Origin: Planctomycetia bacterium
GTDB taxonomy: Bacteria > Planctomycetota > Phycisphaerae > UBA1845 > UTPLA1
Length of the DNA: 64,000 nucleotides
Assembly (NCBI GenBank): GCA_015200345.1
Contig: CP054187.1
Location: 310,001 to 374,000 of the forward strand
Direction of reading: 5' to 3'
Position 1 is the first letter of the stretch, and each line of letters opens with the position of its first letter. The translations under genes and the position numbers were made by a program. Below the pieces are notes generated by a model. It saw nothing but the letters and a program-made list of their open reading frames with translations. It ran no database searches and was not told the DNA's origin. This document shows positions 42,809 through 64,000 of this stretch, one piece after another.

Positions 42809-44155
42809 ATGAAGGCAACACATTCACACGCTTCTTCGGGAACGATCCAGCCGCACTTTGCGGTCATGTCGATGGTTGCGCGTCCGCGTTGGCTCGGTCG
42901 GGTTGCATGGTGCATCGCGCTGTCGTGCGGGGGTGTCCCCGTTGCAATGCTGTTCGTTCCTTGGCAGCAAAATATCAAAGCAGCGGGGCGCGTGCTGGCT
43001 TTTGCGCCGCTGGAGCGCGAGCAGGCGATCAAGGCCCCCCTCGGCGGACGAGTCGTGCGTTGGCGCGTGCAGGAAGGATCACGCGTCTTAGCCGGTGATC
43101 CTCTGGTTGAAATCTCCGACATCGACCCCGAGTTGATTTCTCGCCTGCAACAAGAACGCAACGCCACGCAAGGCAAGTATGAAGCGGCGGTTGAAAAAGT
43201 ACGCTCCTACGAGCAACAAGTCGCCAACCTCGTCGCCACGCGGGATTTGGCCGTTACGGCGGCCATGCACCGGCTGGAAATGACGCGCGAAAAGGTACGT
43301 GCTTCCTCCGCCGCGCTCGAGGCGGCGCAGGCCGCGCTCAAGGCGGCCGAGGCGCAGTTCAATCGGTACCGCGCGCTCCTCGACGACGGCTTGGTGTCCC
43401 GCCGTGATTATGAAGTGGCCGAACGCGACTTTGAATTAGCGCGAACGAGTGTTCAAAGCGCCGAAGCCTCGCTCAAAGCCACACAAAACGAACAACAGGC
43501 CATGGAAGCCGAGTTGGAGCGTATTCGCACCGAGGCAGACTCTCGAATTGACTCTGCCCGCGCCACCATGAACGAAGCACAGGGGCAGGTCCAGGAGACC
43601 CTCGCGAGCCTCGCCAAGCTCGACGTGGCCATTTCCCGACAGCAATCCCAACTTGTCACCGCGCCGCGCGATGGATACGTCTTTCGACTCCATGCCAGTC
43701 AGGACGGTGAAATCGTCAAGGCCGGCGACTCGCTGATGGTCCTCGTCCCGCAAACCGACAACCCCTCGGTCGAGCTTTGGATCGACGGCAACGATGCACC
43801 ACTTGTGCGCCAGGGAAGCCCCGTTCGCCTTCAATTTGAAGGCTGGCCCGCCGTTCAATTCGTCGGCTGGCCTTCGGTCGCGGTCGGCACATTCGGCGGA
43901 CGGGTCGCGCTGATCGACTCGACCGACAATGGCAAAGGTCAATTCCGCGTCCTGGTCGTTCCCGATCCGGCGGACGATCCATGGCCGGATAGCCGATACC
44001 TTCGACAGGGTGTTCGCGCAAAGGGCTGGGTGCTGCTGAACCGGGTCACGGTAGGATACGAAGTCTGGCGCCAGATCAACGGATTTCCCCCCGTCATTGC
44101 GCCATCGGAGCCTGCGCCGGGAGACGGAAAGGCCGAGGAATCGTCGAAGAAATGA
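42809..44155 (+). CDS. HlyD-family membrane fusion (adaptor) protein
   Basis: The protein has 448 residues. One membrane span occurs at about residues 32-52 (LGRVAWCIALSCGGVPVAML), followed by a lipoyl/barrel part (IKAPLGGRVVRWRVQEGSRV) and a long coiled coil from about 105 to 285 rich in Glu, Ala, Lys and Gln. The returning lipoyl half (TAPRDGYVFRLHASQDGEIV) and a C-terminal barrel complete it. It bridges the ABC exporter and the TolC-like protein. Its stop overlaps the next gene by ATGA at 44152-44155. Confidence 0.9.
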   Translation: MKATHSHASSGTIQPHFAVMSMVARPRWLGRVAWCIALSCGGVPVAMLFVPWQQNIKAAGRVLAFAPLEREQAIKAPLGGRVVRWRVQEGSRVLAGDPLVEISDIDPELISRLQQERNATQGKYEAAVEKVRSYEQQVANLVATRDLAVTAAMHRLEMTREKVRASSAALEAAQAALKAAEAQFNRYRALLDDGLVSRRDYEVAERDFELARTSVQSAEASLKATQNEQQAMEAELERIRTEADSRIDSARATMNEAQGQVQETLASLAKLDVAISRQQSQLVTAPRDGYVFRLHASQDGEIVKAGDSLMVLVPQTDNPSVELWIDGNDAPLVRQGSPVRLQFEGWPAVQFVGWPSVAVGTFGGRVALIDSTDNGKGQFRVLVVPDPADDPWPDSRYLRQGVRAKGWVLLNRVTVGYEVWRQINGFPPVIAPSEPAPGDGKAEESSKK

Positions 44156-60924: not shown

Positions 60925-61096
60925 GAAATGCGACCGCTCGCCCTCTTCCGTGCCCGTCCCACAGGCGAGCGATCCGGCATCATAGGGCACACCGGATCGC
61001 GCGGCAATTCAGTCAATTGGGAGGACCTGCGGGACACGCGGCACGCGAGCGGCCTCGCGCTTGCGAGCACGGCAGGCGCGACCGCACAATTCGCGT

Positions 61097-62857
61097 ATGA
61101 CGAGTCAGCCTCTTCAGGCGCTGATCGCGTTGCGAACCGAATTCTCGCACGCCGCAGCGCGAAAAAAAGCCGCCGCCCTGCGCGCGCTCATCGGGGCGCC
61201 GCCGACGGACGCGGCGCAAGTGCGTACGCTCCACGACACGCTTCTGTTCATCGCCGCCCACCCGGATGACGCCACGATTCGGCGTCTGGCGGATACGTGC
61301 CTACGCTCGGTTTGTCATTCGATCGAAGGATCGATGCCAATCAGCCGACGCCTTTCCAACTCCGGCATACTCGGCACGACTACCACGCACGTGTTCTCGC
61401 TCTCCATGTTGAATTGGCTCGTGTCAACCTTCCCGAAGGACCTCGACCTCGATTGGAGCGATGGAGCCGCCATGGACCGGCTCGAGGCCTTTCTCCCTCA
61501 TCTCGTCCGCACTTGCGAACGCGACGGACTTTATGCCGAGCACTTGTCCACCCGCGAATGGATGGACCTCGCGCGCGGTCGACAGACGGCTGCGGCGTAC
61601 CTTGTTGACTGCGCGGGACGCATTCCCGGTTCATCCACGCTCAAAGAACACCTCTTCGAGTCGATGGAGCTGGCTATTCGCTGGCGGCTGAATCGGCCCG
61701 CTGGCTCGCGTTCGTTCGCGCGGTTTCCTGCGCGGTCCGCTCATTTTCAACAGGAGCCGATCATCAAGATGATCGAACTGCGCAGCCTGTTGAATCGCCG
61801 CCTGCCGACGCCGAAAAAACTGAACCGCACGGCAACAGAAAAACTCCTCGACGCCTGCCGGATCACCCTCTGCGCTCGCAACCGCGAAATCGACACACTC
61901 ACCTACGTGAATCCACGCGAGGTGTATTTCCTTCAACTTGAGCGCGGGATCGATGTCGCCGTATTCGGCATGAGCCCCCCCTGGCGGTTGCCCATCGAGA
62001 GTTACTTCGGCTTCGTGGCAGCGCGAAATCGCGTGCCGATCGCCTACGGCGGCGGCTGGGTGCTGTTCGACCGCTGTGAGATCGGCGTTAACATCTTCGA
62101 CGAATTTCGAGGCGGCGAATCGGCCTACGCATTCGCGCAGGTGCTTCGCGTCTATCGGCAGTTATTCAAATCCACGCGGTTCTACGTCGATCCGTTTCAG
62201 TTCGGTGCCGACAACCCGGAAGCCATCCGCTCTGGCGCGTTCTGGTTCTACCATCGCCTCGGGTTTCGGCCGACCGATGCCGCGCTGCAACGCCTGGCCG
62301 CCGAGGAATCGCAGCGCATCGCCGTCCAGCGCGGCTACCGCTCGCCCCCTGCCGTGTTGCGGCGGTTTGCCAAGGGGAAACTGCTGCTCGATCTGAACCG
62401 GCCCGCGGAAGACGGCATGTCCTCCGGTGCGATTGCGAAACATGCGCCGCGCGGCGACGTGTCGCACAATCTCGATTTGACGGCATTGAGCCTGGCGACA
62501 ACAAAGTGGATTGGCGATCGGTACGAAGGCGTGAAGTCCAAGCCGCTTGAAAAGCATTGCGCGAGCGTCTGGCGCATCCTGGGCATTCGTTCGACGCGCG
62601 GCTGGTCAGGATTCGAGGGCGTATGGTTTGGCCGTCTCGTTCGCCTCCTATGGCCGATCGCCCCGGAATTGCGCTGCTGGCCGCTCACAGTGCGGCGCGC
62701 GATCGCCGACGCATTTCGCGCCAAGGGCGGCATAAAGGAGCGAGTCTATGCGCGTCGCCTCGCCGCGATCCCGCAACTCCGCGATGCATGGATGCGCCTG
62801 GCTGCAACCGCGCCGAAGCCGGACCGTCCATTGGGGCGGCGAAACGAATCGCCATGA
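61097..62857 (+). CDS. Large uncharacterised protein with a GNAT-like segment
   Basis: The product has 586 residues from ATG 61097. I do not recognise the family. The first 250 residues look helical (TLHDTLLFIAAHPDDATIRR). From about residue 290 a segment resembles an acyl-CoA N-acyltransferase: IAYGGGWVLFDRCEIGVNIF, then YRQLFKSTRFYVDPFQFGAD and FWFYHRLGFRPTD, the usual GNAT FYxxxGF ending. The C-terminal 150 residues are basic. TTGCGA, an 18-bp gap and CACAAT end only 6 bases before the ATG, hinting at a leaderless transcript. Confidence 0.7.
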   Translation: MTSQPLQALIALRTEFSHAAARKKAAALRALIGAPPTDAAQVRTLHDTLLFIAAHPDDATIRRLADTCLRSVCHSIEGSMPISRRLSNSGILGTTTTHVFSLSMLNWLVSTFPKDLDLDWSDGAAMDRLEAFLPHLVRTCERDGLYAEHLSTREWMDLARGRQTAAAYLVDCAGRIPGSSTLKEHLFESMELAIRWRLNRPAGSRSFARFPARSAHFQQEPIIKMIELRSLLNRRLPTPKKLNRTATEKLLDACRITLCARNREIDTLTYVNPREVYFLQLERGIDVAVFGMSPPWRLPIESYFGFVAARNRVPIAYGGGWVLFDRCEIGVNIFDEFRGGESAYAFAQVLRVYRQLFKSTRFYVDPFQFGADNPEAIRSGAFWFYHRLGFRPTDAALQRLAAEESQRIAVQRGYRSPPAVLRRFAKGKLLLDLNRPAEDGMSSGAIAKHAPRGDVSHNLDLTALSLATTKWIGDRYEGVKSKPLEKHCASVWRILGIRSTRGWSGFEGVWFGRLVRLLWPIAPELRCWPLTVRRAIADAFRAKGGIKERVYARRLAAIPQLRDAWMRLAATAPKPDRPLGRRNESP

Positions 62858-62955
62858 AGTGAATCAGATGATCGCACCAAGCCGATACGCACCGTGTCAT
62901 TCACTCGCCCCGGCGCGCCGAACGGGCTCGAATGCTCGCTGGTTCAATTGTCGGC

Positions 62956-63024
62956 CTAGATGAACGCGAAAATCAGATCCAGAATCGCGAAGATCAGCTC
63001 CAGGATCAGGTAGAAAATGTCCAC
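62956..63024 (-). CDS. 22-residue hydrophobic heptad micropeptide
   Basis: A GTG start (63022-63024) lies 8 bases after AGGAG (63033-63037), and the frame ends at TAG (62956-62958). The peptide is almost all Leu, Ile, Phe and Ala with three acidic residues and contains two copies of a heptad, ILELIFA then ILDLIFA. The two DNA copies differ mostly at silent third positions (ATC/ATT), which argues for selection on the protein. A TAGAAT at 63072-63077 could be its -10. It resembles membrane micropeptides or type I toxins in character; function unknown. Confidence 0.5.
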   Translation of the reverse strand: MDIFYLILELIFAILDLIFAFI

Positions 63025-63132
63025 GCGCGTTGCTCCTGTTCCGCGAGGTCCAAACGCAGGCAGTCCTCTCTATTCTAGGGAGGTTGCGCGCACGTACCCG
63101 GCGCTACATTAGACCCATGAGAATGGCCGGGG

Positions 63133-64000
63133 TTAGGGCAACGAAACGCCGCGACGTTTGCTGCAAAGCTCAATGGCAAGCCGAATAGCGGACTTCATCG
63201 AGCCGGGGTCCGCTTGGTTCTTGCCGGCGATATCAAAGGCCGTGCCGTGATCGACGCTGGTGCGAATGATAGGCAATCCGAGTGTTAAATTAACTGCCTC
63301 ATGAAAAGCAAGCAGTTTGACCGGAATCAGCGCCTGGTCGTGATACATGGCCACCACGCCGTCGAATTCGCCGTGCACCGCACGGTGAAAAAGCGTGTCA
63401 GCCGGCAAAGGCCCCTGGGCGTCGATGTCGTGTGCGCGGGCCATTTCAATGGCCGGTTCGATGACGCGCGATTCCTCGTCGCCGAAAAGCCCGTTCTCGC
63501 CGGCGTGCGGATTCAGACCCGCCACGGCGATGCGCGGCCGGGCAATGCCGAACCAATCCCGCAATGCAGCGTGCAACAAGTCAATAGGTTGAAAAACGAG
63601 GCCGATCGTGAAGTGATGTCGCAGTTCAAACAGCGGCTCATGAATGCTTGCCAGGGCCACGCGCAACGGACCGCCGACAAACATCATGGTGATTCGCCGT
63701 GTGTGGAACCGTGCGCCCAGCAACTCGGTGTGCCCCGGATACGGCACACCCGCCATCTTCCATGCCGTTTTGTGAATCGGCCCGGTCACAATGGCATCAA
63801 GCAAACCTTTCTGGCAATCCGTAACGGCCTCATCAATGAAACGGATCGACGCCCGCCCCGCTTCGACTGATGGTCTACGCAGCGGTCGCGCGTCGACGTT
63901 GCAATCGTCGAAATCGGCGATGAGAACGGAAATCTCTTCCGTGGCGCCGCCCAAGGGAGAAGTTAGCGTTCCATCATTCAGACCGTTCCAACCGCTTGCT
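63133..64000 (-). CDS. pdxA: 4-Hydroxythreonine-4-phosphate dehydrogenase, 5' end beyond the window
   Basis: The frame stays open to the window edge, so the N-terminal part (including the usual GDPxGIGPE motif) lies outside. Seen here are AIVTGPIHKTAWKMAG, PGHTELLGARF, GLNPHAGENGLFGDEE, VVAMYHDQALIPVKLLAF and GLPIIRTSVDHGTAFDIAGK, including the metal-binding histidines. The enzyme belongs to pyridoxal phosphate synthesis. The stop is TAG-free downstream: it ends RRGVSLP with TAA at 63133-63135. Confidence 0.93.
   Translation of the reverse strand, partial: ASGWNGLNDGTLTSPLGGATEEISVLIADFDDCNVDARPLRRPSVEAGRASIRFIDEAVTDCQKGLLDAIVTGPIHKTAWKMAGVPYPGHTELLGARFHTRRITMMFVGGPLRVALASIHEPLFELRHHFTIGLVFQPIDLLHAALRDWFGIARPRIAVAGLNPHAGENGLFGDEESRVIEPAIEMARAHDIDAQGPLPADTLFHRAVHGEFDGVVAMYHDQALIPVKLLAFHEAVNLTLGLPIIRTSVDHGTAFDIAGKNQADPGSMKSAIRLAIELCSKRRGVSLP

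Follow-up and report, generated by a model that had tools for sequence, protein, structure and literature searches.

CydX, KdpF, AcrZ and MgtS are single-helix regulatory microproteins of membrane complexes that usually occur in one copy per genome; they are tied to known partner complexes, in the case of CydX and KdpF by operon. SpoVM is an example of a helix that lies on the membrane and senses the surface of the lipid or gives it shape. Within membranes, polar side chains promote the pairing of helices. With regard to toxins, the accessible part of a study on TisB (PMC11449926) describes D5, K12, Q19 and K26 as spaced by seven, the charged residues and Q19 as forming one face, and K12 as needed, with neither K12D nor K12R substituting for it. 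IbsC, ShoB and DinQ lack the positively charged C-terminal part that is usual in the class, according to the accessible part of another source (PMC8309996).

Here we describe a free-standing gene in a window of 64,000 nucleotides (the whole stretch of DNA that was analysed), which, judged from its sequence and that of its homologues, would encode a membrane microprotein of 22 residues. Most likely, a view that we hold with moderate confidence, this product would belong to a membrane complex as a small subunit that regulates or stabilises it.

Location and sequence of the micro-ORF

A previous, sequence-only reading had proposed an unannotated micropeptide frame at 62956-63024 with a Shine-Dalgarno (SD) sequence, a GTG start and a TAG stop. 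The frame was found at exactly these coordinates with all three elements; its strand, which had been left unstated, is the minus strand. The features of the locus are the following:

62956..63024, minus strand: 22-codon gene, GTG start (63024-63022) and TAG stop (62958-62956); 18 other genomes have homologues that keep both start and stop codon
63033..63037, minus strand: Shine-Dalgarno-like AGGAG, 8 nt before the GTG
62986..63006, minus strand: first heptad, ILELIFA, residues 7-13
62965..62985, minus strand: second heptad, ILDLIFA, residues 14-20
63072..63077, minus strand: -10-like TAGAAT at -53 from the start, possibly the gene's own promoter
63133..63999, minus strand: pdxA, codirectional upstream neighbour, running past the window end (Pfam PF04166, E=4.2e-104)
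61061..62857, plus strand: 598-codon ORF, convergent downstream neighbour, no Pfam match at E<=0.01

The frame (63024..62956) encodes the peptide MDIFYLILELIFAILDLIFAFI, whose hydropathy (2.31) is the highest in a set of 929, namely all window ORFs with a length of 15-29 aa, the runner-up having 1.58 and the best other ORF with an SD-like site 0.77. The claim that the peptide contains two near-identical heptads, with DNA copies that differ mostly silently, holds: residues 7-13 and 14-20 agree at 6 of 7 positions, an identity equalled by 4 of 20,000 shuffles of the peptide, and the two 21-nt copies differ at three sites, all third codon positions, of which two are silent and one exchanges E and D. 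Tandem Repeats Finder reported the pair at 62965-63007. The window also contains short tandem repeats with periods of 21 and 24, at 43310-43353 and 43826-43872; these periods are multiples of three and the repeats are perhaps in-frame protein repeats.

The gap was said to be free of other genes, and no other gene is supported between the 598-codon ORF and pdxA; other short ORFs are listed there, among which only an overlapping one on the plus strand (62932-63078, 48 aa) was considered. It is not counted as a gene here; the changes between the window's genome (G000) and its sister (G001) fall mostly on third positions of the minus-strand frame. The 'GNAT-like' label given to the 598-codon gene was not confirmed by Pfam at the above threshold. 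This gene has a match in 12 of the 17 genomes of the window's family, own genome included (one internal stop was counted in G005, G006 and G012), and at nine of its loci in other genomes no hydrophobic ORF of 15-35 aa (mean hydropathy >1.8) adjoins it.

Homologues and their distribution

The DNA of candidate homologues was inspected, and a candidate was accepted if its peptide length, its start and stop codons and an SD-like site supported it. In the 17 family genomes, a search at the protein level gave a match in seven (own included), a consensus-like query over 114 genomes of the order gave 11 genomes with a match and a profile of seven copies gave 14. Later rounds, with a codon-level pattern and then with profiles of 18 and 20 copies, brought the total to 20 accepted copies in 19 of the 114 genomes, distributed over three families (f1 10/17, f4 6/27 and f8 3/51; 0/19 in the other five families). 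All copies have 22 residues, save one of 21 (G006), and 18 of the 19 carrier genomes have a single accepted copy. With a length of 21-22 aa and homologues in 18 further genomes that all represent different species, the family falls within the range that the accessible part of PMC10903887 gives for the Pro-SMP finder (20-60 aa and conservation beyond the species).

The sequence-only reading had made its proposal depend on the conservation of start, heptads and stop in close relatives. Start and stop are both kept in place, the start as ATG or GTG. The near-identity of the heptads is not kept: in the 11 copies found by similarity the best match at an offset of seven amounts to 6, 6, 5, 5, 3, 3, 3, 4, 5, 3 and 3 of 7 residues. 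The duplication seen in the window is the form that a polar stripe along the helix, common to the whole family, takes in a single lineage; what persists is the helical spacing of polar residues rather than heptad identity.

The specificity of the searches was assessed in several ways. The exact pattern gave a hit in 14 of 397 genomes of the class, all among the 98 that belong to the order, with 0 of 299 outside the order and 0 for the backward control; with one mismatch it hit 16 of the 114 order genomes, at one place each, and the controls again gave 0. With up to three mismatches at least 85 of the 114 genomes were represented among the matches listed, a result that is noise-laden, as the controls were also positive. 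The G038 copy and the second copy of G025 stem from this three-mismatch pattern; the later profile recovered both at E<=4.3e-4, while containing both. The codon-level pattern is unspecific in low-GC genomes. In a wider scan of contigs it picked up at least 119 stretches, and three family members were present among the matches listed (L050, L089 and L103, labelled Phycisphaerae, Phycisphaerales and Planctomycetota, respectively).

With a profile of the 18 copies other than those of G000 and G001, the window peptide was recovered at E=1.4e-4 and the next of the 1677 frames of the window at E=20, a test that is not fully independent because the copies in the profile had been found starting from the window peptide. 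In a draw from the phylum a profile of 18 copies matched the own genome only and none of 391 others at E<=0.05, in a fast first look that may miss divergent copies and over a draw that was not sorted by order. At E<=10 the profiles of 18 and 20 copies matched 27 and 30 of the 114 order genomes; these totals exceed the accepted count because they include weak hits that were not accepted and mostly unread. Weak profile hits L272-L277 were read and then not accepted. In G044 there is a 24-aa ORF, MGWVNEIWNILLGIIEWVLLAAEG, after GGAGAG (L283; profile E=0.127), which is perhaps a divergent relative and is considered doubtful. A DNA search of 61 relatives returned the own genome, G013 (a true copy) and G056; in the last, which has no accepted copy, the match (L003, 1501-1556; E=3.3e-4, 76%) concerns the sequence 3' of the ORF. 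As 95 of the 114 order genomes gave no accepted copy, the family is either patchy or diverged beyond detection. The gene appears, as far as searched, to be confined to one order of the Planctomycetota.

That this is a phage or plasmid gene was considered and rejected on the following searches. Using one hybrid sequence as the query, tblastn found nothing among 50,697 records of phages and 72,556 of plasmids, PADLOC had no match for the 20 members and PHROGs nothing better than E>=0.077; the pattern hit 64 stretches in IMG/VR, the best of which had a similarity score of 35.9, whereas 14 family peptides all scored 45.2 or more. The family profile A4 matched no solved structure. Five peptide fragments had no match in the papers searched, and no title among the planctomycete and small-protein papers listed concerned the family. 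No Pfam/NCBIfam model scored above cut-off in the table for one member, and across 18 members only the TisB, DUF2770 and SecE models came up at E<=1.

Selection on the encoded peptide

Between G000 and G001, 10 of the 21 codons after the start differ, nine silently and one with an amino-acid change, where random scattering leads one to expect 5.1 amino-acid changes; one change or fewer was obtained in 0 of 5000 trials. A significant silent excess was also found for G013/G015 (5 amino-acid changes vs 9.3 expected, P 0.002) and G002/G013 (7 vs 10.8, P 0.012), and not for G034/G037 (6 vs 6.8, P 0.39) or G002/G008 (6 vs 8.0, P 0.10). The comparison of silent and replacement changes that had been suggested favours coding in three close pairs and falls short of significance in two. 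Differences are the least frequent at second codon positions (0.18 vs 0.50 and 0.61), a conservation that was partly favoured by the pattern with which some copies were found. In three close pairs the ORF is 84, 75 and 77% identical and the 60-nt 3' flank 57, 48 and 68% (shuffled means 49-52%); the 68%, for G034/G037, means that in that pair conservation runs past the stop codon. Altogether, the codon comparison indicates that purifying selection acts on the peptide in the closest pair.

Expression signals and genomic context

An SD-like 4-mer precedes the start at all 17 family loci tested, vs 9% of all ATG/GTG in the same loci, and a stricter SD set at 15 of the 17 vs 7% for the control; binomial values for this enrichment treat related loci as independent and were set aside. 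TANAAT occurs 35-54 nt before the start at nine of the 17 loci, vs 0.9% of 20,142 control windows of 63 nt, and the other eight have no -10-like box. A consensus scan of both strands of 62700-63300 found no sigma-70-type site with both boxes. We infer that the peptide is produced.

A structured RNA was considered and rejected: for the 131 nt that include the ORF, most shuffled versions fold better than the native sequence (z = +1.59), and Rfam returned only chrB-a, outside the ORF and with 19.1 bits vs a cut-off of 43.9. An intrinsic terminator was likewise rejected, with a T run of >=4 within 150 nt downstream at four of the 17 loci and none that is consistent. Within the ORF and 60 nt to either side of it, no TANAAT was found on the antisense strand of the 17 loci; with regard to an antisense RNA this result and that of the consensus scan are weak negatives.

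Adjacent genes were compared to a reach of about 7 kb with crude gene calls, in which a called ORF overlaps the peptide in G016, G110, G072 and G066. The neighbourhoods of G000 and G001 are common nearly throughout and the G002 copy also adjoins the 598-codon gene. Further shared neighbours were found for G013/G015 (one adjacent gene), G014/G016 (two), G015/G008 (a block of two genes, inverted and farther off), G034/G037 (eight genes), and G016/G035 and G035/G038 (single genes). Adjacency is thus kept among close relatives but not between more distant ones, as would be seen if the gene were inherited vertically while gene order decays. One neighbour family, which by eye we take to resemble an ECF sigma factor, is common to G034, G037, G110 and G025 at 3.6-5.3 kb, and may be shared by these four genomes only through its general abundance. 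No conserved neighbour gene at the 17 loci points to a partner. In G025 (L262) two copies with similar upstream stretches lie 2193 bases apart, flanking a 628-codon ORF; the micropeptide gene was thus duplicated locally, together with the sequence upstream of it.

Shape of the peptide and its probable role

Averaged by column over the 20 copies, hydropathy has its peak at 100 degrees per residue, a periodicity that 0 of 20,000 column shuffles reach (P 0.006 when any angle is allowed). The peak holds when only the 11 copies that similarity searches had found are used (P 6e-5 at 100 degrees). The residue is polar or glycine at position 2 in 19 of 19 copies, at position 5 in 16/20, at position 9 in 19/20 (D, E, N, Q, S, A or G across copies) and at position 16 in 20/20; position 13 is often small. 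These counts should be read with the pattern in mind, which required A as the middle base of codon 16 and, in most hydrophobic codons, T or a pyrimidine in the middle, and left codons 2, 5, 9, 13 and 20 free. All 20 peptides together contain two K/R/H residues, with arginine in two copies and lysine in none, their net side-chain charge is -1 to -4 and their GRAVY 1.06-2.62. The family is accordingly predicted to form an alpha helix that is hydrophobic but for one polar face (residues 2, 5, 9 and 16).

We propose that the peptide, once made, would become a single helix inserted in the cytoplasmic membrane. Its acid/amide stripe at residues 2, 9 and 16, one every seven residues, would pair through hydrogen bonds, the partner being either the matching stripe of a second copy or a polar site of a larger membrane protein. 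Most likely the peptide would regulate or stabilise a membrane complex, of which it would be a small subunit, and would not be a toxin. This preference follows from the single copy in most carriers, the ordinary SD sequence, the unremarkable fold and the lack of an antisense -10-like site at the loci analysed. The sequence-only reading had offered a membrane peptide or a toxin-like element; the former is the most likely, whereas the latter is only possible.

The strongest rival of the subunit reading is a membrane-depolarising peptide like TisB, a type I toxin-like or stress peptide whose stripe would assemble a bundle that leaks protons or ions; an antisense RNA that was not seen, or transcription confined to stress, would restrain its synthesis. 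We regard this as possible and rather unlikely. The window peptide matches the TisB models Pfam PF13939 (E=0.011, 16.5 bits vs a cut-off of 25; peptide residues 1-20 to profile positions 4-23) and TIGR04459 (E=0.0062, 16.3 bits vs 38; residues 1-18), and the former alignment sets D2, E9 and D16 of the peptide on TisB D5, K12 and Q19, with polar residues every seven positions in both. The size, the hydrophobicity, the patchy distribution and the duplication in G025 speak for it as well. Against it, the matches are below the curated cut-offs and were obtained at E<=1 for two of 18 members, 18 of 19 carriers have one accepted copy, and the usual SD spacing, the 131-nt fold and the 17 loci without antisense TANAAT each count as weak negatives. 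More specifically, neither a lysine at the K12 position nor the C-terminal lysines of TisB are present in any of the 20 copies, and TisB strictly needs K12 according to the accessible part of PMC11449926; the family is therefore not a TisB. It may nevertheless work like one, assembling through its polar face, as an analogue in shape and not in family.

An interfacial amphipathic helix that senses or shapes a lipid surface in the manner of SpoVM, instead of a spanning helix, is a clearly less probable alternative. The amphipathicity is confined to a single face, and acid residues, which a surface position would suit better, could in so short a helix favour lying at the surface; however, the polar face is narrow, the near absence of basic residues (two in 20 copies) leaves little for anionic lipid, and GRAVY exceeds 2 in 15 of the 20 copies. 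At a similarly speculative level, the stripe might form an all-acid/amide 'polar zipper', a bundle conducting protons or cations that would set the membrane potential under a regulated promoter. As part of that same long shot, such a zipper would be an anionic counterpart of TisB that evolved separately in planctomycetes.

A regulatory leader peptide or uORF, of which the translation matters and not the product, is very improbable. A short ORF with its own SD would suit it, as would the six of 17 loci at which the next called gene is codirectional and lies 43-169 nt from the start codon. At five of the 17, however, the window's included, the nearest downstream gene is convergent according to the crude gene caller, and there the micro-ORF is no leader of the downstream gene, which largely refutes the idea; the downstream genes moreover differ between most genera, the amino-acid sequence is under selection and the one weak Rfam match is outside the ORF. 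That a 69-nt frame with a GTG start merely arose by chance in an intergenic gap has next to no probability, in view of the pattern specificity, the silent-change excess, the profile recovery, the SD conservation and, decisively, the conservation in 18 other genomes.

The preferred reading, that of a membrane-complex subunit, concerns a family that at 22 residues is very short for one defined by sequence conservation alone. Its near-constant length, the almost complete lack of basic residues and the sharp stripe would suit the testing of polar-driven helix association in membranes. The family also illustrates that codon-level pattern and profile searches can recover a gene of 69 nt even when it starts with GTG and matches nothing in the databases above cut-off.

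Comparison with known systems

Like CydX, KdpF, AcrZ and MgtS, the members of the family are predicted to be tiny single-helix membrane proteins and usually have one copy per genome; unlike these, the family has no linked partner gene. Like TisB, the family is predicted to form a very short, hydrophobic and amphipathic helix, one face of which carries polar residues at heptad spacing; for the family this is seen in the hydropathy period of 100 degrees. It differs in length (22 vs 29 aa for TisB), in a stripe that is almost wholly acid, amide or small and holds no lysine, and in net charge (-1 to -4 vs +1 for TisB, the latter from the accessible part of PMC11449926). TisB is furthermore a type I toxin of the Enterobacteriaceae, which belong to a different phylum, its models score the family under cut-off, and no sign of an antisense RNA was found at the loci analysed here. 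IbsC, ShoB and DinQ are hydrophobic as well and of similar size (19 residues for IbsC and 26 for ShoB, as given in the accessible part of PMC8309996). They differ from the present family in that none of their own families was matched in the libraries searched and, as for TisB, in the lack of an antisense RNA sign at these loci.
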